From: Antedon mediterranea
Taxonomy: Eukaryota; Echinodermata; Crinoidea; Comatulida; Antedonidae
DNA length: 64,000 nucleotides
Assembly: GCF_964355755.1 (NCBI RefSeq)
Contig: NC_092676.1
Span: 27,758,288 to 27,822,287 of the forward strand
Direction: 5' to 3'
Shown: one piece after another, positions 6,401 through 60,205 of the stretch
How the letters are laid out: each line of letters begins with the position of its first letter
Numbering within the stretch: position 1 is the first letter of the stretch
The notes under the pieces: generated by a model
Database searches by the model: none
Told to the model about the DNA's origin: nothing
The model's input: the letters and a program-made list of their open reading frames with translations, nothing else
Position numbers and translations under genes: made by a program

Positions 6401-9400
6401 CCATACACGCTGCTCCAATACAGAACCGCATCAGGCAATAAAACCAGAAGTTTGGCGAAAATGAAGCAAGACTTCCGGTCAATGTGGCCAATGACAAACA
6501 AATGAATAGAACTTTCTTTCTTCCGATACTGAAATACAACAATATCTATTAATGTATATATCTAAAAAATGCCGCCACAAATAGTTTATAATAATCATTG
6601 TCAAAATTGTCATCGTAGAACAAAGTGATACACTTGCACTTGCATCAACAGGCTTACTACCAGAGAACACATCTTGAAATAATAATTAAACACTGATATC
6701 ATTTATTTTCAAATTTAAAGTGTAGGTAGATAGGTACTTACTGATCAGCAAATGTCCCACATAAAATCGATCCCAACAAAACGCCTCCGAACATAACTGA
6801 CGCAGCGGTAGCCGGTTTGTGAGAATCTTTGCACACCAAATTCCACTATACAAAATATAAATAAAATACTAACCAATTATTATGGAGAAGTAAGGGGACA
6901 TTTTCAGGACCAAATAAAGTGTCCCTTTATTAGAGGGTTGTCGTAATGTTAAAATATATATTGCCATTTTGTTCATGAGGAAATGTGTTATAGGCCTATC
7001 AAACTCTGTCTACACTATTAAACCAGTTTCAAAAAAAGTATGATGCGCTCAAATACAGTAGTGATATGTCATCATCACGTCCATATGGGCACATCACATC
7101 AAGTCGATAGTGTAGAAAGAAATGTACCTCTATCACCATACAGTAGCACCCACCCCTCCTTCGCGAAACCCCTATTAAAGAGACACTTCCTCCGAAACGA
7201 AAGAGGGACAATATTGTTCACAATGACCAAATCCCCATTCAGGGGACAAGCTCAATTATAGATTACGTTGTATATGTCCCGAAGTGTCCATTTAATAGAG
7301 GTTCACTAAGCATTCATTTACAGTAGGTTAGACTGAGGATAAACATTGATTTGACATCTGACATCCAGTTGGCACTAAGCACGAAGAGACAAATTAAACA
7401 TAATATCCGCCTCCTTATATTAACTTTATTAATTGCTTCCCCTCACAAATTACAAATATTATACGTAACGGATAGCAAGAAATATAATTAAAACACATTG
7501 TTTAGATTTGAGTCGGGAAATAATTAACGTCTAGTCATTAAAGTTTAAACTGGTAGGCCTACTTATTGTGACTCTTTCTATTTCCATGTGCCCCACCCCC
7601 ACCACCCCAACGTGTATTGATTATAAACATGGGCGGAACTTATAGAGAAGTTCAAGTAGAAGGACATTTCGGGACCCAAGAACGTGTCCCCCTAAGGTCC
7701 CCATATGCGGATCATAGGATCACAGAGCTGCACAAACAAAATAATAACAGTCTGTCAAAAATGTATAAGGTATAATGTTAATAATAATGAATATGCAGCT
7801 ATGTGTATTTTTGTCAGACTAGCGCATTGAGCAATTGTGATATATTAATTTATTACTTACAGTAATACTGTATTATTATTTTATCTGTCAAAAGGGGTGG
7901 GGGGGGGGAAGCGCGACCCTTACCTCTCCCCTGTCCATACCGCCTATCTAATACAGAGGTTGACGCCACGCTCCTCTAGACCACTGGTTAACTAATTATA
8001 ATATACACATTGAATAGGCCTACAAGGATGATGGCGTCTGAACTTGTTCTCACGTTTGTCAGATGAACTTACATCGAATATGATATTATTGTAGAACAAA
8101 ATGTGTATCAGTGTTGTGATCAAAAGTTTTAATTTTGTCTGCATCGAATATGAATTAAAAGGGAATTACGGGTTAACACGATTTAAATTAATAATACGCG
8201 TAAGTAAGCAGTAAATTAAACATGATCTAACTGGATTAATCCAGAAAAAAAGTGTTTGTTACAAAATGTTGGGTTAGTTCCATTGTGTTCACACCATTAC
8301 ATCCCTACATAAATGCATTTTCAATTTGTTTTCTCGTTTTAATTATAATTTTGCATTATCACTGTTAACTGGATATAGAAAACATGCATCTTCGACTGGA
8401 CTAAACCAGAAATTGTTTTTGAAATCATTGATAATAATTTGTACTTCTCACTTCAACGCTTTTAAAATTAAGTTCACGTTTTGATAACAATTAAAACTAA
8501 TTTGTTCTGAACTAAAAAAGAACTTAAGCATGCGTTTCCGATTCAAATAAACTCTAGTGAACCTTTCGGAATACTACTATTATAGAACTATATAGAACCA
8601 CTCTTTTGGGACACCATTCTATTCTAGTAACATCCAATAGCAATGGGTTAACATTCCCATGAAGCGAACGCTGCAGAAAACCTATCTATTGACATCAAGG
8701 GACACTTTTTTGGTACAGGTTTTAACGGAACGGGGTTGGTGGATATTAGCATAAAGTTGAAATATATGTTGTTATGTTATCAGGCTTTTAAATCGTGCGT
8801 CTTGAAGTTCATGTGACGGAAAATAATCTAGTAGCAATCCGGAACGGATGAGGATGCGGAAACAAATCAATGGATTCCTCCTCGTTTAACACGTCACTAT
8901 ATATTATACCGAACTAAAATATAGATATAGATCTTTTTAATCTTTTTCTGTTTAAAAAGTTTTATTTGTTTATTTCCACTGCTATGCGTGCTAATTGCAG
9001 CATGTTGTTATTTGTTTTAGAAGTTGAATTTCATTGTTCTTCATTCAAACTGACGAAATAGGAGCACAGTGCAACAAACTTGAATCTTAAGCTCTGTCAC
9101 ACTATCAAACTTGATGTGACAAAAACAAAATGTCATGTGCCCATATATGGACATGATGATGTCATATCACTACCATATTTGGGTATATCACTACCATATT
9201 TGGGTATATCACTACCATATTTAAGCACATCACACATTTTTTGTGTCAAACTATAGCTTTAGCAGAATTTGACTTTGAATTTGACTTTGAGAAATGATTT
9301 AAAATAAGGATAACATTAAAATGTTATTTAATTTGGCCGGAAATCGACATATTAAGTTATAACGGTCCGATAACATTTCTGTTCAAGAAATCACTTCTTG

Positions 9401-13700: not shown

Positions 13701-16700
13701 AAATTGGGATGAACGAAAAATAATAATATAAAGCTCTATCTACAATATCAAACTTGATGTGACAAAAAAATGTGATGTGCCCATATATAGACATGATGAT
13801 GTCATATCACACTTTTTTTGTCAAACTAGTGTGATAGTGTGGACAGAGCTTTATATTATTATTTTTCTTATTGCTCTTGTATGCCCGTAAATGGTTGCAA
13901 GAAACAACGCCATTAAACTTGACCTAAAATTGACATTATATATACTATTATAAATATATATTATTGTCAAAACTGCCTTAATATAAATTTATTATTGACA
14001 ATATGTATATAATATATATTTATATATCAATTTGATCTCTGGTGTGTGAGCTTACAAAAGGGGATAGAGGGCTGTTCCGCCGTACCACTCCGAGAGTGTT
14101 AAAGAGTTGCTATCCAATCGAGTTTGAACAATACCATGAAAGCCTCAGGGGTCTAATAATTAGGACATTTACATATCAAGCAGAAGGTTCTGGGTTCGAA
14201 TCTCGATTGAGGCTTTCCTCATCTTTATCGTTTGAAATTAATTAATTAAAATTCAGTATATATTACTGGGCGGTTTAGAACCCATGTTCTGTGTCTGATG
14301 TGTATATATTATACACCCACAGCATTGTCATTTTTTGAGTAATTAGCCTTTGATTTATATATTCATTAAATATATATTATAGACATTAATGATATACATA
14401 CTCTCGAAAACTATTCTTATTTGAATTATTTCCTGGAGAGGTTAATCTCACACTCATGGTGTTATACAACGTTGTCTTGTCGTCGAAAGCTGCACTAGGG
14501 TCACGAACCTGAAAACATTTAAATGCGAATCTACAATTTGAGAATTAAAACACTAAAAACATAATAAAGTCACAATAACACAAATTGCAATTCTACTTAA
14601 TAAGATTTTATAATCTTAGAGCTCTGGCTACACTATCAAACTTTATGCGACAAAAAATGTGATGTGCCCATATATGGACATGATGACGTCATATCACTAC
14701 CATATTTGGGTATATCACTACCATTTTTTGCGCATCAGAGTTTTTTTTGTCAGACTAGTTTGATAATGTATACAGAACTTACTCTCTTAATGTAAAAGAG
14801 TGAAAATCCACTCTTTTCGAGTGAATTTTCACTCTTTTGAGGAGTGGTATTAAGGACCACTCTTCAAAGAGTGAAAACCACTCTTTGAAAAGAGTGGAAC
14901 TATTCACTCTTTGAAAGAGTGGGAAAAGAGTGGAAAAAGAGTGAAATAATATTGTCACTCTTTTGATAAAGAGTGATAGTCACTCTTTAAAAGGAGTGGG
15001 AGCTCACTCTTTTATAGTATTTTCACTTCTTTGAAATGCAGTACTGTAGTGAAATCTTAAAAAGTACTTTAAATCTGCTGGTTCAATGTATAAAATATCT
15101 CTAACAATAACACGACCAAAGATGGATAATAAAATCAAATATTAATTTGTTATCATAGTGCAAAATTGTTACTACTACTGCTGTAGATGACAGATTACGC
15201 ACACAGGATAAATGAAATAGAAAAAACTTTAATTTCACTAAAATAGTAGCATTTATTAATTAATAATAAAGTTCAATGTAATATATCACAATATGTTGGG
15301 CAACTAAGTGCTTAAAAATTAACCAAAATCAAGAGAAAAGTATATTAAGACAATTTTTTAATTAAAGCATACAAAGATTAATACAAATTTGGAATGAATG
15401 TAAGGCAATCTTTGACTTTATACACAACACCAAACAAGCAATAGTAAAACAAAAGTTAAAAAATGTATTACGTACGTATTTTACCTTTGCGTTAAATGGC
15501 TGTAATATTTAAAGTTGCATTCTCTACGTTTTTTCGACCTAATTTAAGGTCACAGACTACATTTTATGTAAAAATAAATAATATATGATCCTATAAAAAG
15601 AGTAAAGGCAGCCAGGAAAAAAAACATTAAAAGTATAAAATGACTTAAAAACTAAATCAAAAGCTAACACTACTGCCGAACCAGCTTCGGTAGCACAATG
15701 GTCACAGACAAGAAAATATTGTTCCGGATTTGTGGAAGGACCAAGGGCTAACAAAAATGGTTGAGTGAACTTGTCACTCTTGTTTTTGGAAAACGTGTCT
15801 ACACTGGTGCCAATCTGTAAAAATAAGAAGAAATATCGTTGTTCTTATTTGTTTAATCAAAATAAGAGAATAAAAAGTACATTTATTTTTGTGTACTTTA
15901 TGTCAATAATTGATAAACCAGGTACATAAAATAAAAATGAAACTACGCAATTGATGAAACATAATAGGGCATTAATAATAGGACATTTGACAAACGTACT
16001 GTATGTGTGAATGAAACAAAACTTGTTAACAGCAAATTTATTTAGGCACAAAAGATGACTCAATTATTGTTACTGCTTGTGAATCAAGAATTATTTAAAC
16101 AAGACCTTCTATTTTGTTACTTACTGGTTGATGTTGGATAAGGTAGTCAAGTGACTCTTCCCTACTGGCTCCTTTTGATTTTCCTTTGCCTTTCTTTGTA
16201 CAATGTGCATTTGAAGATGGCAGCATCAGGGCTAAAACCTTTATGGCACATATGTCACCTGTAAATAAACATACAAGATATCAGTACTATGTTTTTAGTT
16301 TATATACCTAACTTTTCAATTTAAGCCATTTGACTTGTGAATAGGTATTGTAAATATTTAGATAAAGAATCGTCTTTTTAAAATGTAATACTGTGTACTA
16401 CGCCTAGGCTGTGCACGCCAGCATACTTACAGTAAAAGAAAAACGTTCCATCTAGATAAAAATCCATCTGAAATGTCATCTCCATATGTGATCTTAAAAT
16501 CAAGATTTATCTGTGGAAATATGTGAATAATTTCATTGTGCTAAGTTACATATCAAATATCGAGCGGTGTATAGGGGCCAAGCAGTAAGGCAGGGGCGCC
16601 ACAAACCACAGCCATAACATTGGCAAGGCTCAGTCACTTCTTCATTGTTCTGGTGGAAGAACAAGTCTTCTCGGATAAGGACTAAATCATAGGTCCAGTA

Positions 16701-19700
16701 TACATACACTTAAATTGTCATTGTAAATATCTTACCAATCATGGCATGTCCTTTATTCGTGGAAACATTTCAAGCACTTTTGTTATTGTTGGATTTTTTG
16801 TTTTAATGATCGTTGACCTCATGGTGGCTGTCTCCTTAAAATATGTCCTTATCTGCGCAGTATTTTCACGGTTAGCTGGGTGATACTTCATCCATTCAAT
16901 CTTAAATAAAAAATATTTATATTTAAGAAAACAAAATTAAAACAATTTAATACGGTATTTGACAAAAAGGAAATAAGAACTGCTTTCAAGGTATTTATAC
17001 CAAGTTGATCTTTTCTTTATACTAGAGTATAATCATTTTTATCAGTTTAGACCACTACCAAATATGGTACACACTTAGCTAAGGGATCACCTTAAAGAGG
17101 TGCAGAGAGAAAGACTAGTAGTAATATCAACAGTGTGGTAAATTAAGATGATCCCTAAATTCTTTAGTCTTTACAAAGTGAGTTATAAATAACCCAACCT
17201 GTCATTCTTAAAGATCAAAGGTGTTATACTGTACTATAGTACTAATATAGACCTAAAATAGTTTGTAAGCATTTTTCTTCTGCCACACACTCATTTGTGT
17301 AGTCTAACTTAACTAGGCCTAGTATAGTTGTTTAAAACTTTATTTCATTCTCAGTGAAACAATGAATACTGTATTTAAAAGTTCCAACTACAGTACAGTT
17401 GGTTTCTATATTATCATTACAGCCAATGGCAACAGAGCAGCATCATTGGCAATCATGCATGAACATTTGTGTGAAAACACTAATTATAATTATAAAATTT
17501 GTTAAATGAAGTACAAATATATACTTATACTACTCTATCTAGCCTAGAGCCTAGCCTATCTATAAGGCTAGGCTTTGTTATCATATCACTTTTGGCCTAG
17601 GTCTAGACCTACTTACTTAAAATAGTACTAATTTAAAGGTCTAATATGATCGTGCATATAATAATTAAAATCGCTAGCTAGGCCTTCCTTCCTATGCTAG
17701 GTTTAGCCAGGCTAGTAGTACAGGCTAGTAGTAGGCCAATAAAAAAATGTGGCCAATTAATTTATTTAGGCCCTAAAACAAATAATATTAATTATTAATT
17801 AATATTAAATAAATATTATTAAATAATTAATATCATCATAACATAAGGAGAATAGACAAGCCTATGCTAGGCCTATGCCTATTATAAGTAGTAGGCATTT
17901 TGACAATTTCTAACTAGGCCTAGGCCTAGCTCTAGTGCGGCCTTAAGTTGTCATGCTATTTGCGTTTATTCCTCCTCCTGCAGCCGGACCGGTCTCCGTA
18001 CGAGTACGTGCGAGTAAAGGGTAACAGGATGCGACCGGTCGACCGCGCCCTGCCTTCAGGCTAGAAGGATTATTATTTCAAAGTGTACAGTAAATTTGTT
18101 ACTGATGTTTCTTCCTCGCCTCTCAAATATAATATGTCTCTATATTATCAGTATTGTAAATAATCATCTTATTCAATATTCTTACCTTCAATCAGTTTAA
18201 TTGTCTCATTTTAATGCTAAATTTCTGAAGAAACTCCTCCATGATGACGATGTCACGCGATGGTGGTGAAAACAAAATGTCTCCCCATCAAGCACAAAAA
18301 TTGCGCCAAAATTGCATACGCGTCTCTGATTGGTTCACGCGGTCACTCTTTTTTCACTCTCGAGGAGCGAACTGCTTTCAGCTATTCGTATTATTTTAGA
18401 CGATTTTAACCACTCTCGGGGAGTGAAAAATCGCTCTTTTAGAGTGAAAACAGTTTCACTCCCCACAACGAGTGACGTTTTCACTCGTTTACAATAAGAG
18501 AGTAAGATAATATAATATCAAGATAAAGATTTATTATTTAAAATTTATTTTAGTGAATGTCACTAGACTTTTTGGATGTTTGGGCGTGGCAAACATTTAC
18601 GTACCGTTTTCGCCGAATCTAAAGCAACGTTTGCTAGATGAGGTGAACCGCTAACACGTAAAACGTAACTGCCTGTAAAAACAAATCTGCATCTTATTGT
18701 TATTCTGTAAAAGTGGTTATTATTACGAATTGTGACCAGAGGCTTTGTGTCAACTGTGTAGGTCTATAACAATAGACAAAAGACACAGTCAACTCTACTC
18801 CACATTAGTTAAATACAGTCAACTTTCCCATACAGAGGAGTCTCAGAAACAGTAAAAATGGATGTTTAACATTATAAACAAATCCGAATACCAGACTTTC
18901 CAGACATAAACAGGCCAACTCAAATGTGTCTAGTATTGGAAGAGTTGGTATAACGTTTACCTGCTACGGCTATATCAATGTTGAGATACGCAACTGCACG
19001 TTCGACTAGATTCATGTAAAACTCCTGTAAACCAAACATATACGTATATGACTATGACTGAGTGCACTAAAATCACGATAGATCAGAGAGTTATTATAAG
19101 CTGAATATCTTTGCGATAGATACAGTGTTTAAGCAACGCACAAAAAGTTATAGTCTGTGCGCTGGCATGTACTAAACCAGAACCATTCGGAATTGGTGGA
19201 AATATAATATTAGCTTAACTTTCCATTTGCACTTCACACAACAAAGGTTGTATCGCTACTCGTGCGCGCTACGCAGTATTATTTACCTCCGTGTATTCGA
19301 CAGATCCAATTAGACCGAATTCTTCAGCTCCCCAGCTGCCAAAAATGATGGTGCGACGAGGGCGCCAACCTGTGCTTATAATAGAAGAAGACACCATCAT
19401 AATAACAGTGTATGGTAGTTGGTGAATAAACTAGTTACACGGCAGCCGTGAAATACATTGTGATGCCGTGTAGGCAAACTGTCTATATTTAAATCTGGGG
19501 AGTATGAAAGCGATTGAACAGGTAGGTTTCAAACCCTATTATGCAATATTCATTTAAGTATAAATAGGCCTACCTTCTTGTTTCAACTTTCCAAATACTC
19601 GTGATAATTCCAGGAGGCAAGCCGTTCCACTAGTGGGGTCCACTGAACCTAGCCCCCAAGCATCCCGGTGATTTCCGATTAATATATATCGATCTATAAA

Positions 19701-22700
19701 AAATATCTTTTTTTTTTTTATTTTACTTTAAATTTTAATTTTTAATTTTACCCCGTTTAAATAAGTTAGTGATTGATTCCTAAAAAACTATTATAACTAT
19801 TTATATATTTATTTTAATATATCGAATTCTGAAATTGACTGCCAGGTAACATTTGTGTATATTAATTACGATACGATATCCTATCACTCTTCAAATTCAT
19901 ATTTGTAATATTAATAAAAGTTAATAACCTGTCTACAGTAATCACAAAATTATTAATGAAAGAGTATTTGTTGCCTTAATACATTTCCACGTTATGAATT
20001 AATTCGAAAACTCTGTATCATCAAAGCCGAAAATAATGAAAGTAAAATGATATCTAATCAATATATTATTCATAACTCCAAAGGGGCCATTAGGAACATA
20101 AACAAACTGCTAGTCCCATGGGCATAACTCTTTGACTTTGTTATTTGGAATAATTACAAAATTTGGCACTTCTAATATATTGAATATAATTTATAATAAA
20201 AAATATGAACAAAAATGATACAGGATGACTTCAATACAGAAATAAACTACACTGGCTTATTTAGACACAATCTGCCCACGACAGAAATAAAGGGCACGAA
20301 ATAATAGAACGCGATAGTGTAGAGAGCTTACCGATGATGAAGTTTATTGACAATGATAAGATAATTTGCATCTTTTAAATCAATTTGCTTCATAGGAACG
20401 TACCTGGTTCAAACTCGCCCTTCAGATAACCCATGACGTTGTAGGTCCAATGCTGACTTGTATTCGAGTTGATAACTATCCGTACTCGACTTAAAATAGA
20501 AAACAAATACAATACTGTGTTTATGTAGTATATAAAAAAAAGTTACCTATAATTGTAAATAATTCACAATTTAAATTGTCGACAAGTTTGGTGCAACGTT
20601 TTATCACATTGTGAATTAAAAACCAAAACAAGTGTGATCGGCCCAAATATGGTAGTGATATGACGTCGTCGTGTTCATATATGGGCACATCACATTTTGT
20701 TGTCATATAAAGTTTGATATTGTAGATAGAGCTTAAAAATGCATATACTCACTAGTCCTTGTATGGCGCCTTGAAACCTGGGCCTGTTCTGTATTCGATG
20801 TCTAAAGTACCCGTACGTGGAGCTTGTTCCCCTTCCATTTTGCTGTAAAGAAAATAGAAGAAAAACACACCTATATACATTATACTGTTATGCAGGTGAG
20901 AGATAGACTCAAATAAAAGCCACTTCTAAACTGACCCTTACTTAAGTAACTGTCTTAGAGATCGAAACTGTGATTCTTTAAGTTTTGTCTACACTACATA
21001 TAATAATAGTATAGTGATATGACATCATCATGTCCATTATGGGCACATCACATTTCTTTGTCACATAAAGTTTGATAGTGTAGACAGAGCTTAAGTGGTC
21101 TTTTTGAGAGTGCCCTGCAGTTCTGCATCACTATGCAAATGCTTTCTTTTCAAAGAAAATAAAAAATAAGCTTAGGCCTCACGATAACCAAGGTTTTTTA
21201 TTAACCACTTCAAGTATCCTAGGCTCACTTCTAACCACAACAAGTATCATAGACTCATTTCTAACCTACCTTAACAACTCCTTAGCGTCTGCGTAGCCGA
21301 TAGGGTGCACGATAATTTTAGGTAGTCCTGCATCACTGACATTCAAACGATAAGCATAATCTAAAGAAAAGTTATATTTTTTATTAATTTAAGCGATCAA
21401 GTGCTCGCTTCTCTTTTGAAAACCATATCCTGATTGGTTACTTATAACAGATAATTTGAATACGGTATGTTACGAACAAGACGAATATCCTTGTTGGGGT
21501 TTGTCTTATTCACCCGGATAAGTTTGTCCATGAAGCTAATTTGGCAGGTAAATAACTAAGTCTGAACGCGTTGGAAGTATCAAGCTATGTCTACACTGAC
21601 AAACAAGTATAATGTGCCCAAATATGGTAGTAATATGCTAAACAATATTAGTGATATGACATCATCGTGTCCAGGGGCACATCTCATTTTTTTGTCACAT
21701 AAAGTTTGATAACGTAGACTGAGCTTCATGACCATCATTGCTGTACCTTTTGACGGATATCCCGGTGTTAACGGATCTCCAAGTTCAGATAGGATCGATC
21801 CTCGCGGAGCAGCGGTACTTGGTAAACCCGTTCCATTAGGATAAGATTCCCATGAAGAATAATCTTCTGGATCGGGGTACAGGATCAAACCCGCAGCTCC
21901 ATACTCTTCCGCGTTTTTCACCTTAGAAAAATATGTAAATGTAATTTAAAAGCAGCTGTATCCGATCCCCAGTGCATGGAGTTATATCCATTTTTATACC
22001 TCCATGCTCGGTATATGTCGATATTCATTTATTTTTTGCGCATAATAATCATCTTAAAGTTATAAAATATATGTAATGGAGTAGATGGTTTTAAAGTGAT
22101 AAAGGAACTTCGCTTACAATGGCTATTTGTTTATCTTTTTTATATCATCATGGCGGAAGATTCCTCCATATTTGGATGCACGCACAATGATCCGTCGGTT
22201 GTGATTGGTTTGATGCGCGTAAAGCTTGCTTCCCACTAGGAGGCAACGCAAGGGCGTAACGCAACGCAAGGTGATTTGCCCAATCACAAGCGATGGATTA
22301 TTCGAACAGTCGCGTGTGATTGGTCAACTCGTTTGCGTTGCGTCTACGTCCTTGCGTTACTTCACTAGTGGGAACCACGGTTAAGTTTAATGTACTGCGA
22401 ACCAGTGGCGAATCAAGCTTTACTACACTATGCAAATGATGCGATTTTGGTGACGAAATTGATGCTAACAGACTTATCGCGAACTCACCTTATTAAAACG
22501 CGGTATGCCACTCATTCTTGCAATTAAAATCTTATCCTTCAAATTAATACCAACTGTATTGGTTAGATAGTTAAGATCTTTTACTCTGCAGTAATGAACG
22601 AAGACCAAGTCACCCTGTAATGATAAACATAATCGTAAGTTGATAAATACATATTCTTTCTTATCCCATGACATGCATAATGTATTTAAGGTGTTACATA

Positions 22701-30002: not shown

Positions 30003-33000
30003 ATGTGGGACGTTGTTTCTCTCCACGTATCCTTCATGTTCTTCATTTGTCGAACACGGGGTTCTCGAAAACGCTGCAAAACTAGTATATATTTATTAAC
30101 TTTTATTTCATTAGTTTTAGCTGGATTTTATGGGATTTACACTGGTGGTAGTGTGAAGCAAACGGACCGCGACACGCCTTTACGGCGAGTAGTGCAAGGT
30201 AGTAGGGACCATCATGTAGGCCCAGCCCAGGGCCTACCGCTACCACCTGAAGATCTGTTGCATAATAATCTTCAAAAAGAACAGAACATTAACAATATTT
30301 TTCAAAATAACAATGGTGTAAATAATCCAGAAAGATCATTAGATACAAATCAGGAAAAACATAAAATTTCTTTTGAAAGTGATGATAAATATCCTGGTTT
30401 TGATAAGCCATGGAAAAAGTTTCCAGATCCGATTATCCTTGAGCCACAAGAGATTGCTGCTCAGAATGTTGAAAATCAAGTTCATAACGCAGGCCTAGCA
30501 GCCCCACAAGTTAATAACGCAGGCCTTGATGCACCCCAAGTTCCTAAACAAGTGCCTGTTGCTGCCGCAAATGTCAATGCAGTGAAAAACGAAAGAGAAG
30601 TGAATCCAGAGATTGAGAAACCACCAGCAAGGAGCTATGTTGTTGATCATAGGTAAATTGTTGTTTTATATCACCCCATCTCAAACCACAGTCCTACTCT
30701 TCCCCCTTTTTATGCAGAATTATTAATAAATTAACGCGTATTATATACTTTGGTTGACCTCATCAAATCCATGTTCAATATTTATTCAGCGATCCATGTT
30801 CTAATGTGACTAAAAATTATACAATACAACTTTATAAATTTGTGAATATTTAAATTTCTTTTTCAAATAGAATCCATGTTGCTGTTGTGTGCTGCGGCGA
30901 CAGATCAGAGGAAACGGTAGTGATGTTGAAAACTGCAGTTATAAACACACAACAAAAACTTGTCTTTCATATATTTGCTGAAGAGGAGTTAAAACCAGGC
31001 TTATCACAAATGGTAAGATTACAAGTAGTCATTTTTTTCATATTACAGTATATAACCAGTTTCGAATAGAGGAGGATATTTGTGTATATGGTGGTGTCTA
31101 TGGCACCAACATTTTTGCATTTTTTTTCCTCTTGAGTTCGGGGATAGCGCAAGGGGAATGCATGCCCCTTCCCCATATGACAGCTAAAATATGAAATACA
31201 TTTAACAGAATATTACTTAGTGCTCCTCTGTTAAAAAAATTACTGGATGTACCCATGTAGTATATTATAAAAGGCCTAATAATATACTATAAAATTTTAT
31301 TTGAGAATCAAAATGTGTGTTGTGCAATATTAATATCTTATCATACACTACTTTATATTGTTATGTTACAGCTGGAATCTTGGCCAGTTTCTTTCCAAGC
31401 AAAGATGGAGTACATGCTTCACTCGATTCAGTTCCCTAAAGGTGAAAACCCAGAAGAATGGAAGAAAATGTTTAAAACATGTGCAACACAGAGGCTCTTT
31501 TTACCTGTAAGCAGAAACATGTGATGTAAAAAAAAACCAAAAAGGTGGCTAATATCCCAGGGTGGGCTTATAAACAAGGATGGAAATTCTTGCCACAAAA
31601 CAAGTCTAGAAATGAATGAGGAAAATAAATATGAGGAACATCTTAAAATATGATTAAACAGAATATTTTGCACCTTTAAAACAACTTTTTTATTATTATG
31701 TATTTTTTCAAACTACAAGAATTGTGCCTTTGCTGCAAAAGAGAAAACAATAAATTATTATTATTAACACCAGTGTGGAATTACAAGACAGGGCTTATTT
31801 ACACAAGGATGGGGTTGTTATACCACATTAAAAAAAACTCAAAAGGGTTGCTTATATCCCAGAATGGGCTTATATACAAGGATGGCTTACACTACATTAG
31901 TATGTGAGTATCATTGATTTTCATCTTTATCTTTCAGGACATTTTAAAAGATGTTGATTCGTTGTTGTATGTGGACACAGACATCCTGTTCATCCAGCCG
32001 TTGGATGCAATTTGGTCATTTTTTAAAGAGTTCAACGCAACGCAAATAGCAGCACTAACTCCTGAGCATGAAATAAAAAACATTGGGTGGTACAACCGCT
32101 TCGCCCGTCATCCTTATTATGGCATGACCGGCCTGAATTCAGGCGTTATGCTCATGAATCTAACGAGGATGCGCGCGTTTGGATGGACGCAAAAAATAGT
32201 GCCTATATATCGTGAATACAAGATGAAAATCACATGGGGTGATCAAGATTTAATTAATATTTTATTTCATTTTCATCCAGGTAAGTTTCTGTTCTGTTTA
32301 TATTTATAGTGTGCTATGTGATGTGCATTGTATACAGTATTCTGTCTGCAGCTCTGTCTGCACTATCAAACTCTATGTGAGAAATAAATGTGATGTGCCC
32401 ATATATGGACATGATGATGTCATATCACTACCATATTTTGGCATATCACTACCATATTTGGGCATATCACACTTTTTTTTGTCAAACTAGTTTGATAGTG
32501 TAGACTGCTTGAAATGACTGTGAAATGAATGAGGGGTCATTTTTAGCACTCACATTTAGCACTTAGCATTCAACTCCTATTCAGGAGACACCTATTAATG
32601 GGATACTTGTTGGATCCCAAAGATGTCCTCTTTATACTAAAGCGTGAGGATGTAAGCACAGAAGGTTTAATAGACGGAGCTTTATACTTGCTGATGGTTA
32701 AAAAAGGGCAAGTCCAATAATTAGGATCACTACTTGTACCAAAATATCATTTTTCAGATCGTGTATTCGTTTATCCGTGTGAGTGGAACTTTCGACCGGA
32801 TCACTGCATGTACACCAACAATTGTCATCGGATAAATGATCATGGAATCGCAGTGATTCACGGTAACCGGGGCGTGTATCACAACGAAAAACAGTGGCCG
32901 TTTAGGATGATATATGAAAGTTTTTTAAATGTAAGTAATGCAACTTGCCCTTTCTGTGTGTTTATGTGAAAAGTGGTACATATTACAATTAGTTGTTGCA

Positions 33001-39430: not shown

Positions 39431-42400
39431 ATGCAGTGTGACGAGAACTGTATAGTTTTAGTCGACCGACTAGAATCGTCTTTATCATTAATCTCAGCCG
39501 ATTCGTCGTCAAACTTCCCAAGTAACAGTCAAAGCGGTATACTTGTAGACTACGAAAATGGATTTGTCATCACCAGTGCGGTACTCTTCTCATCCAAAAT
39601 CGATAAACAAAAGTTGGCAAATAATTTGATCAAATGTTCAAAAGATTTTGAAACAATTAAGATAACAGTTATCCTTCAAAACAAATGTTGTAAAAACGAT
39701 CAAAAAGAATTTATTTCTGTTGCGGGGAAGTTGATGTTAATATGGAGTTGCATGGAGTTTCAAAATGTTATGACGACACATTTTTCAGAAAGAGACGGCT
39801 GGCAATTTGAAAAATATCAGGAGAATGAGATTTTGAAAGAGAGGTCAAAAAATTCACTAATAGAACCAGTAAGCTTAAAGTCAGAATTTGAGGAAAATGA
39901 AAACATAAATTTACTGTTCTGGTTTGCTTTGATAAAACTAGACTATAATGAAAAAATAAAAAGGTAGGTAAAACATTTTCAAATTATAAAATGTTTCTAT
40001 AGGTCTTTGGCCTACCTCATTATTTATTTCTGTCTTTTCCATGATAACAATATTAGTATCAGTGGCAGTGACTTAAAATTGAAAATTGTCCATAGAAAGG
40101 CAAGCAAATAGAGAAAAAAATAAAATTGTATTTACTTTGTTTTAAAATTTTGTATGAAAGTTAAGCTCTGTCTGCACTATAAAACTAGTTTGACAAAAAA
40201 AGCATGATGTGCCCAAATATGGTAGTGATATAATGACCAAATAGGGTAGTGATATGAAATCATCATGTCCATATATGGACACATCACATTTTTTTGTCGC
40301 ATAAAGTTTGATAATGTAGACAGAGCTTTATTCACAAGGTCTTGTGGTATTATTTATTGTTTTAGGTTTGGGAACCAAGTAACACATTACTATCCATCGG
40401 TGAACCTTCGTCAGGGTGACGCCTTACTAGCGAGTGGTACACCGTTCGGTGCTCTCTGCCCACCAGTTTTCATGAACAGCGTGAGCATGGGAATTGTGTC
40501 GAATTTAGCCGGAAAGAAAAACACACTGATAATGACAGACGCCAGAGTGATGCCAGGTTCAGAGGGAGCAGGTGTGTATGTACTTCCACATGGGGATATA
40601 AACAAAAGGTTTGACAAAATATAATATTAACTAAATAAATTTATTAAAATTGACATATTTAAACTGAAATTCATAATGCTGTTTATTCAATTCGATAAAA
40701 AGATATATTACATAGGAGCCCGAAGGTTAAATTGCAAAATATACTACAATTATTTAGTTAAAAAACTTTTTTTAAATATTACAATACCATCAAAAGAATA
40801 CAAGAATACAACCAATCCAATAAAAAAATAGTTTAAATCTGGATAAAAGAGACGCACAAAAGCACAACAGGATAATAATAAAATAGAAAGTTGCACAGGA
40901 TTCACTGAACCACAAGGATAAAGACAGTACAAAAAACTGTAACAAAAAACAGATATGCACAAATCTATCTCCACTCCTTTGATATTATGTTTGTCGCTAA
41001 ACGTCTTGTGTAATTTCTAGAAAGCTCGCAGCAATGATTGTCAGTCCTGTATCTTGGAAATCTGATGAATGGATTGGTCTAACTCTTGCAGTCTCTATCT
41101 CCGCTCTTTTAGACTCGTTACAAACTCATCTACAGTTACCTCATAATTTGTTGATGCCTGCGGTTGATGCTGAAGTCAACCAAGGTATGATGTTTTCATT
41201 TAACTTTGAACCTCACATAATAATATACTTTCTGAATTAAACTGGTCTGCGGTATGTGTGTGGAACCATTGGTTTGAAAAACGGGTTAAACCAGCTCCTG
41301 AATATAAGTAAGGAAAGAGCTGAACCACAAGACCACAGTCCCACTTTGGTGGCAAAAAGTATCCTAAAAGTTTAATGTCTATAGCAAACAAATTGGGCAT
41401 AATATCTGTATATTGTGGCAACCCGAGGTCAGGCAATTATACAGAGAACATGTTTTACAATACAAGAGATGCCGAGTTGATAATTAAAGACAGAGCATAC
41501 ACAAAATGGCTTAGTTGTAAATTGTTATTTAATGTGTTATTCAATATAATTATAGTCAACATTACAATTACACTTCTTCCACCACCTTCTCTCTCCGCCT
41601 TCTCATCCTATACTTGCATCTTTCCTTCAAGATACCTTGGTCAATTTAAAATGCAATGCCAACATTTATTTTACTTCTAGCTTGCTGGACATCTGAAATT
41701 ATGAATGCTATCAACTCTGTGGTATATGTTCAGGTTGGATCAATATGGGGATCAGGGGTTATAATTGATGGGGTCAAAGGTTATGTATTGACCTGTCGTC
41801 ATGTAGTGAGGAGCAGTAAAAGAGGAGGTTGGTATTCCATTGTTTTATAAGTACAGTTTTTATAGTAAGAAAATAACTGGTTACTTTAATTTTTTTTAAA
41901 CATGAAAAATTCCAATAACCAGTTCATTAGCATTCTCAAATTAAAACTGTCAAAAACACCCAATTGATTAAATGAAACTCATTTTCTGGTTGTTATACTG
42001 GAGCTTTTGGCATCCACAATTCATTTGAAACTTTTTGTATTTTCAGTAAGAATATTCAGTCGGTACCCTAGCCCAAGGTGGCTAGCAGCTGATGTGGTCT
42101 TCTCTACCTGCCCTAGTTCCCCTCTAGATTTGGCTCTGCTCAAGCTACAGAATTGTCCAAAAGGCCTACCAGCGGTGAAGACCTCAACAGATGCCTCTAA
42201 AGGTATTTCTTCAATTTCAGAATACATTGTATATGATTCATTGGTACAGTTTTTGTATGTGGGCCTCATCAATTTTTAGTTAAATTCAATCCATTTAATT
42301 TTTCTTAACCATCACAACAAACAGAATCTTACTATGACATACAAATAGATCACATTTCTTTTTGTATATTTTATATCGTCATACATCAATACTATAATCA

Positions 42401-58029: not shown

Positions 58030-58193
58030 GGGCCTTGTCTACACTATCAAATTTTATGTGACAAAAAAAAGTGATGTGCTCATTATGGACATGATGATGT
58101 CATATCACACCATATTTGGGCATATCACTGCCATATTTGGGCATATCTCACTTTTTTGGTTCAAACTAGTTTTATAGTGTGGACAGAGCTTAA
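58030..58193. mobile_element. MITE family A copy
   Basis: 'gggccttgtctacactatca' to 'tttatagtgtggacagagctt'-type right end, with two 'catatttgggcatatcac' modules. Confidence 0.85.
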
Positions 58194-60205
58194 GACTTCT
58201 TATTCACAATGTCTGCAATATTAATTTCGTTTCCACTATTAAATGTTGTCTTTTTGTTACTTGTGCTCTCACCTGCTGCAGCAGTTGTCTCGTGTTAGTG
58301 GAGATAATAGTTTCCGATGACAACAACAAACGGTTCCTCGCAGAAATAATTTCGAATTATCATACGCACATCGAATTAAATTGAAATTGTATTAGGCAGT
58401 TGGACTATATTTGGAACTCATCAAATTGGATCTAGTTTCAGTGAGTCGTTCCCCATAGATATGCTTTTATATACGGAGCTATTTCGTTATCGACTCCCCT
58501 GTGACCAACCCTTAATTTCTTGGCTTGGTAAAATCGATATTATTTTGGTTGAATGTTCGAATGCAATGTTCGAGTTATAGCCAACCAATCTTAAACAGTG
58601 GAAGGATCATACAGTAGTGGTGGTGAAGTTTTGACAATACCTAGGCCTACTTTCTTCTTCAGAATATCTCTGCAATATTTTCGTGTAAAACAAATTCCAC
58701 TTTACAGTATTTGAATAATATGTTGTATGGTCACGTGGCTATGAATACAACAATTATCTTAAGAAGCGTCAAGAGTAAGTCACGCTTCATTTAGCTGCTC
58801 GGAATGATTCAGTGATCGACAAGGCCGGCAAATGGTATACTACTTAGAAGATTGAATTGCCTATACACACTGGCAATTGCAACCTCATAATCGCATTCTA
58901 ATGACAACTGAGAAAAACAAGAGTTTTAAAAGACCGTAAATTATCTAAATACACGGCCGCTGTTAATTCCACAAGAGGTGGCTATTAAACGTCTAAACGT
59001 ATAGATACTGTATTGGTATTTCTAAATACTGATTGTGTTCCAACTAATATATGTGTCCAACTTCTGCGCATATCGTTTGTGCGCTATCTGTTCTCAATGT
59101 GCACGCATTGATTCGCCATAATCATGTTTAGTAACCACAAGTTTGCAGCGCGGCACTTATTCTTGCTTGCGAACAGATACGGATTTCGTCTGTTTCAGCC
59201 TAAATATTCTAATAAACCTTCATGGGTTAACTGTACCGTATTGGTTAAAATTAGTTGACTTGTGAGTGTTTTTAACGATTCGAACCAAATTCTTCAACAC
59301 TTAATTTCTTTAAAGTTTTAATTTACAAAGTTATATCAATTTGTTCATTATGTTTTAGTAAGTAGGCTATTCCTGCCTTATGTAACCATTGTACAATAAA
59401 AATGAAGAAATTATTTTTTTTTATAGCATCGAACAATATAGTTCTATATTATAAATTGGTTGACATGGTTGAAAAACTCATTCTCAAGCCTAAATGCGAT
59501 CTCGTATGTTTTGTTTTCACCTGAGGTGTATCAACAGAAAATTGCATTTTCTTAACATTTCGCCCACGCCATTTTCAGAACCGATCATCATCAATACAGC
59601 ATTTTTGTTCCCTTTAACCGTTAGCCTATTGTCTATTTGTCAGTACAGTAGTACTTCAATATAGCCTATAGAGACGTTGAATAATCAAGGCAGTCGTTTC
59701 TCGTATTTTATTATAAGAAAGTAATTAGTTTACCGTGAGTAGCATGACAACCACGAAGGGACACTGTTAAACACTGTTACAATAGTAACACTAATTTAAA
59801 CGTATTTATTTGAAACATTATTTACACTTTACACTATACATACAGTACAGTATGCTATTTTATAAACTCCCCGTGTGGTTAGTGTCGTCATTATATTCTA
59901 TTTAAGAATATATGGCGATTATGGCGGCAAACGCGCACCATATCGGTTAACGGATCGGAAGGCACAACGTAACAATGCGTGCGCGTTATTGTTTATACTA
60001 CAAACAAGCGCATAGGTTAATGATTATGATTTTACGTAACAATTCAGATGAATAACATTATTAACGTCAGAAAGTTTGATTTGTTATACGTGGTTAAATA
60101 AACGTAAGCTTAATTATTATTAATATAATTATGTCCTGGTATTAAATAAAGTAATGTTCTGTTCTCCGTTGTATTGCTTAGATGAAGAGTCCCCATTTAT
60201 CATGT

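Follow-up and report, generated by a model that had tools for sequence, protein, structure and literature searches.

A Recently Mobile TIR Element in the Crinoid Antedon mediterranea Carries a Decayed, Intron-Containing Gene of Probable SAM-Domain Ancestry

The window, that is, the whole stretch of 64,000 nucleotides that was analyzed (NC_092676.1, positions 27,758,288 to 27,822,287), contains at positions 14780-18504 a genuine, recently mobile TIR-type element. It probably represents a Pack-TYPE-like, non-autonomous family of TIR cut-and-paste elements (TA target duplication, CTCTCTTAATG ends, GAGTG arrays), whose cargo would be a complete, intron-containing host-type SAM-domain gene, now decayed. 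The family of the window element is called F1; a second family with the same ends, F2, carries a related gene.

Borders, Target Site, and Copies

The inverted-repeat arms of the window element (14778-14806 and 18478-18506) comprise 29 nt and are 93% complementary. When copies are compared, the repeated unit narrows to 14780-18504, a span that takes in both terminal TAs: homology among F1 copies stops at TACTCTCTT...AAGAGAGTA, and reaches from TACTCTCTTAATG to AAGAGAGTA. The matching inverted ends of the original prediction are thus present, as are its subterminal motif arrays, which consist of GAGTG/CACTC motifs at both ends. The corresponding features are:

14780..18504, no strand: whole TIR element with its two terminal TAs (limits of homology to the C9 and C2 copies; end table)
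14782-18502: element proper, CTCTCTTAATG...CAATAAGAGAG, inside the terminal TAs
14780..14781: left TA target-site duplication (joined flanks with a single TA match other MITE copies)
18503..18504: right TA target-site duplication (same empty-site comparison of MITE copies)
14780..14806, plus strand: left terminal inverted repeat, TACTCTCTTAATGTAAAAGAGTGAAAA
18478..18504, minus strand: right terminal inverted repeat
14798..15017, no strand: left subterminal GAGTG/CACTC motif array
18340..18490, no strand: right subterminal GAGTG/CACTC motif array
14620..14781, no strand: older MITE with AGCTCTGTCTACACTATCAAACT ends; the element sits at its right edge, where it inserted

A search of the genome (354 Mb, 18 contigs) gave two further full-length copies, at C9:14206127-14209851 (98.5% identity) and C2:14957101-14960825 (99.4%). 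The flanks of these three near-identical copies are unrelated, starting exactly at the TIRs. Three such copies at different sites with the same borders bear out the claim of a mobile TIR element. Moreover, when non-mobility was checked for (ends confined to this site, coding relatives always lacking such flanks), further ends and flanked coding relatives were both found repeatedly, so mobility stands. The 23-bp end pattern has 42 matches genome-wide vs. 8 for a reversed-pattern control, and short derivatives with the same ends occur, for instance at C3:25876428-25876671.

An empty site is also available. When the window flanks are joined by one TA, they match other copies of a MITE of about 170 bp through the junction, in an alignment that is short beyond the junction (a few bases to about 8) and that has the single TA within it in several copies. 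The target duplication is therefore TA, and insertion took place at the MITE edge. With TIRs at the exact unit borders, a target-site duplication with its empty site and copies at unrelated sites, the element has the features of class II TIR elements; the tally is three young F1 copies, further diverged F1 copies and nine F2 insertions.

The MITE with AGCTCTGTCTACACTATCAAACT ends is itself abundant: the 64-kb window alone has about twenty full or partial copies of it (for example at 9083-9201, 20642-21095, 32350-32502, 40161-40327, and 58036-58195). At C5:24097745-24098809 (G000), this MITE end recurs in tandem at a spacing of about 168 bp, in what looks like a satellite derived from the MITE.

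A Decayed Gene in the Window Copy

All the lesions and segments described earlier are present: the minus strand has five exon-like segments bordered by GT/AG, the first of them opening with the ATG at 18242, and these contain two in-frame TGA codons and one phase clash. Exons are lettered below from the start codon.

18186..18242, minus strand: exon a, the first SAM half; against the C4 copy it has a 1-bp deletion that brings a TGA into frame
17100..17760, no strand: stretch where the C4 copy has extra exons instead; the window copy holds unrelated sequence
16736..16900, minus strand: exon f, contains a TGA
16432..16510, minus strand: remnant of exon g, followed by an 82-bp deletion
16125..16259, minus strand: exon h
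15587..15814, minus strand: exon i (lower end about 15587)

The 1-bp deletion, together with a small change, accounts for the TGA of the first exon. The phase clash goes back to the loss of 82 bp at the end of exon g (the third of the five), which takes out EPILKYAKNQ...GGD. Compared with C4, the window copy also lacks the exons that lie between a and f; those lost there and kept in C4 comprise the second SAM half, DYNIKHIL..., YPTKDQK..., and EHFYNEGSGFIEYRLK.... The lesions of the gene are common to all three youngest copies (window, C9, and C2).

The C4 copy is a diverged F1 copy (C4:12371212-12375495) with a fuller gene, likewise decayed by frameshifts, and has lost its right end. A single-copy chromosomal gene at C5:10519-10526k encodes a protein with an N-terminal match to Pfam SAM_1 (6e-8). 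The exons of the C4 and window copies taken together are collinear throughout with this C5 gene (BLASTP 6e-65, 29% identity), in a comparison for which the C4 and C5 exon chains were pieced together by eye out of open segments, breaks being marked by X. The counterpart of exon a in the C5 homologue is the exon MEVFLKSKNVDDDVINVLK, and exon borders agree between F1, F2, and the C5 gene. Taken at the level of sequence, these comparisons show that the ancestral gene would have encoded a SAM domain plus a "QPFLLALG" C-terminus. Pfam searches of the decayed element protein and its exons gave no match, neither a SAM score nor a catalytic domain. The element gene is thus tentatively assigned to the SAM family by its collinear homology with the C5 gene, whose protein alone matches SAM_1. 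The gene is, as first described, spliced, decayed, of the QPFLLALG type and not a transposase gene; this view is amended in that the exons appear as remnants of a longer SAM-domain gene.

Proteins of the QPFLLALG type are probably widespread in animals. The closest likeness is to SAM-domain proteins that we take to be SAMD3-like, which have the same N-terminal SAM domain and QPFLLALG-type C-terminus; unlike theirs, the gene described here sits decayed inside a transposon. Searches for viral relatives and for solved structures found none, and the C5 homologue has no F1- or F2-type ends within the stretch read. Abutting the missing right end of the C4 copy (C4:12370598-12371211; L019/L013) is a fragment of another uncharacterized gene, VVDAMADLQ...DELTTYLAEKILDH, which has no Pfam match.

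A Second Family With the Same Ends

The ends of F2 are the same 17-23 bp as those of F1, with 85% identity across the first 59 bp. The interiors of the two families are alignable only in subterminal repeats, the GAGTG arrays being shared, and in exons. Examples among the nine F2 insertions are:

C9:17390750-17393945: F2 element
C3:17658621-17661871: F2 element
C5:13686339-13689353: F2 element

The F2 gene has the same orientation as that of F1, begins with a MEEFL start exon and contains QPFILALG. Exon order, as well as the position of the MEEFL start exon near the right end, is the same in both families. In the last exon the two genes are about 40% identical, vs. 45-47% between F1 and the C5 gene, and a tree of exon i does not resolve a single origin for the F1 and F2 genes. 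Since F2 combines the same ends with a gene about 40% identical in the same orientation, the gene seems to be an integral part of these elements rather than a one-off capture. This suggests a long-standing association of a jumping element with a host-type gene. It also bears on the original alternative of gene capture or own cargo: the mobile carrier is upheld, and a single recent capture does not suffice to explain homologous genes in two deeply diverged families.

Two F2 loci on C9 (L067, C9:17390750-17393945; L069, C9:17163679-17166685) represent one insertion found twice, with identical flanks, 227 kb apart, and are a segmental duplication or an assembly duplicate. The F2 copy on C5 (L068) is split at positions 369-2400 (C5:13686608-13688639) by two nested foldback-type repeats.

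A third dispersed pair, 99% identical, is found at C2:32815846-32818200 (L084, L082, L080) and C5:7569718-7571556 (L083, L081). It contains a relative of the last exon (QPYILALGADKLTSTEHF) adjoining CAACTATTGGGTAAT-type repeats, and is possibly a third mobile family. For this group, an end-like sequence, CACTGTAAAAAGGTTGGGC, gave one exact match and one with three mismatches, unpaired; for this reason the group is not called a transposon.

Coding Constraint in the Cargo Gene

Two F1 sublineages were compared, {window, C9, C2, C4, C7b} and {C10, C7c}. Between them, dS is about 0.3-0.5 and dN about 0.1, giving dN/dS of about 0.2 to 0.34 (p from 2e-10 to 2e-3; from 6e-9 to 2e-3 for the ratio of about 0.2) and so a bias of substitutions toward synonymous sites, and codon positions 1/2/3 differ at 17/19/48 sites (p 2e-5). 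Between the window copy and C10, synonymous divergence (about 0.5) exceeds that of introns (0.13) and of 3' noncoding sequence (0.23), perhaps because of a mosaic history; when dN is set against intron and 3' noncoding divergence, the ratios are about 0.45-0.8. The codon pattern shows constraint, of a size that is uncertain given the lower intron and 3' noncoding divergence. Within F1 sublineages and among F2 copies, the gene gave no sign of constraint. C10 has its left end, 3' noncoding stretch and introns in common with the window copy, which places the gene inside the element before the sublineages split.

Mobilization

The copies read yielded no transposase, and assignment to a superfamily is withheld on that account. 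Among the matches listed, all those to DDE_3 or DDE_1 lie, by eye, more than 20 kb away from the ends listed. The lesions of the gene being common to the three youngest copies, these moved after it broke, which would have required a transposase acting in trans. The copies read also gave no larger autonomous element. The long copies on C10 (F1) and C1 (F2) are broken up by non-LTR retrotransposons, which account for their length in place of an added transposase, and the insert of L068 consists of two foldback repeats devoid of coding capacity. Four loci with ends having at least one mismatch (L075-L078) contain no gene in the stretch read.

Comparison With Known Transposons

The closest design is that of Pack-TYPE elements (Pack-MULE, Pack-CACTA, and relatives), which are likewise TIR-bounded and non-autonomous, carry gene sequence of host type and depend on mobilization in trans. 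The copies read here have host-type gene sequence with introns inside TIRs and no transposase of their own, and no autonomous partner of a known superfamily was found among the end-pattern and DDE_3/DDE_1 matches listed. Pack-TYPE elements have been reviewed for plants (PMC13317346). By contrast, the host is here an animal, the gene is not a fragment but complete, and one gene type occurs in two deeply diverged families. A lineage of Pack-TYPE design would thus have kept a complete spliced gene, with a signature of coding constraint, in two families with the same ends. A literature search gave no relevant account of SAM-domain or SAMD3 genes in transposons.

Like Tc1/mariner and its MITEs, the element has a TA target duplication and short TIRs, and the duplication is compatible with Tc1/mariner-like machinery. 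It differs in that no copy read contains a transposase and in its dense subterminal arrays, which are not usual in Tc1/mariner. CACTA (En/Spm) elements do carry subterminal repeat arrays, and share short target duplications with the element. However, its ends begin with CTCTCTTAATG after the TA, not with CACTA or CACTG, and membership in CACTA/EnSpm was rejected. In the CMC superfamily, target duplications are of 2-4 bp (PMC4482050). ISL2EU elements (PHIS superfamily) combine, as here, a dinucleotide duplication with a second, non-transposase gene: AT is duplicated within A|AT|T, and a THAP/DDE transposase is accompanied by a YqaJ protein (PMC4482050). The present element has a TA duplication and a putative SAM-domain gene, and Pfam finds neither YqaJ nor THAP/DDE in its exons, so that ISL2EU was also set aside.

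Origin and Possible Role of the Gene

Under the favored Pack-TYPE-like reading, the gene would have entered the element with its introns, at the DNA level, before F1 and F2 separated. The transposase of another element would have recognized the shared ends and moved the elements in trans. The SAM-domain protein would have been functional during part of the history of the family and may have aided the element before decay, for instance through binding to its subterminal repeats. By the time the window, C9, and C2 copies spread, the gene was already decayed.

A more active role can be imagined, in which the SAM-domain protein would be a working component of transposition, alone or with the transposase of a partner element, and F1 and F2 its decayed copies. 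By analogy, TnpA of En/Spm binds subterminal repeats. The same gene in the same place and orientation in two diverged families, each with the MEEFL... start exon, argues for this role, as do the signature of coding constraint, the dense arrays at both ends and the third 99% pair (C2:32817k, C5:7570k), whose related last exon lies beside another repeat array. It is nevertheless unlikely, given that Pfam finds no catalytic domain, that the single-copy C5 homologue is free of such ends in the stretch read, that the youngest copies were mobile although none had an intact gene itself and that the third pair offers only candidate, unpaired ends. It would be similarly improbable that the SAM/QPFLLALG family is not ordinary cargo but an end- or array-binding factor of an unrecognized transposon group, with such elements accounting in part for its many copies in animal genomes. 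If the gene does serve the element, this would provide a first function for an uncharacterized SAM-domain family and a pointer to an unnamed transposon group.

Alternatively, the F1 and F2 genes could be different paralogues from one host gene family, captured independently between ends of the same kind. That the last exon of F1 is as close to the C5 gene as to F2, and that the exon-i tree lacks resolution, would agree with two such events; the shared orientation, exon order and start exon near the right end speak against them and make this origin unlikely. Finally, segmental duplications of a host pseudogene could mimic a transposon, as the F2 insertion found twice on C9 illustrates, but this is extremely improbable in general and rejected for F1, whose boundaries are exact at three sites with unrelated flanks, alongside an empty site with a single TA and short derivatives with the same ends.
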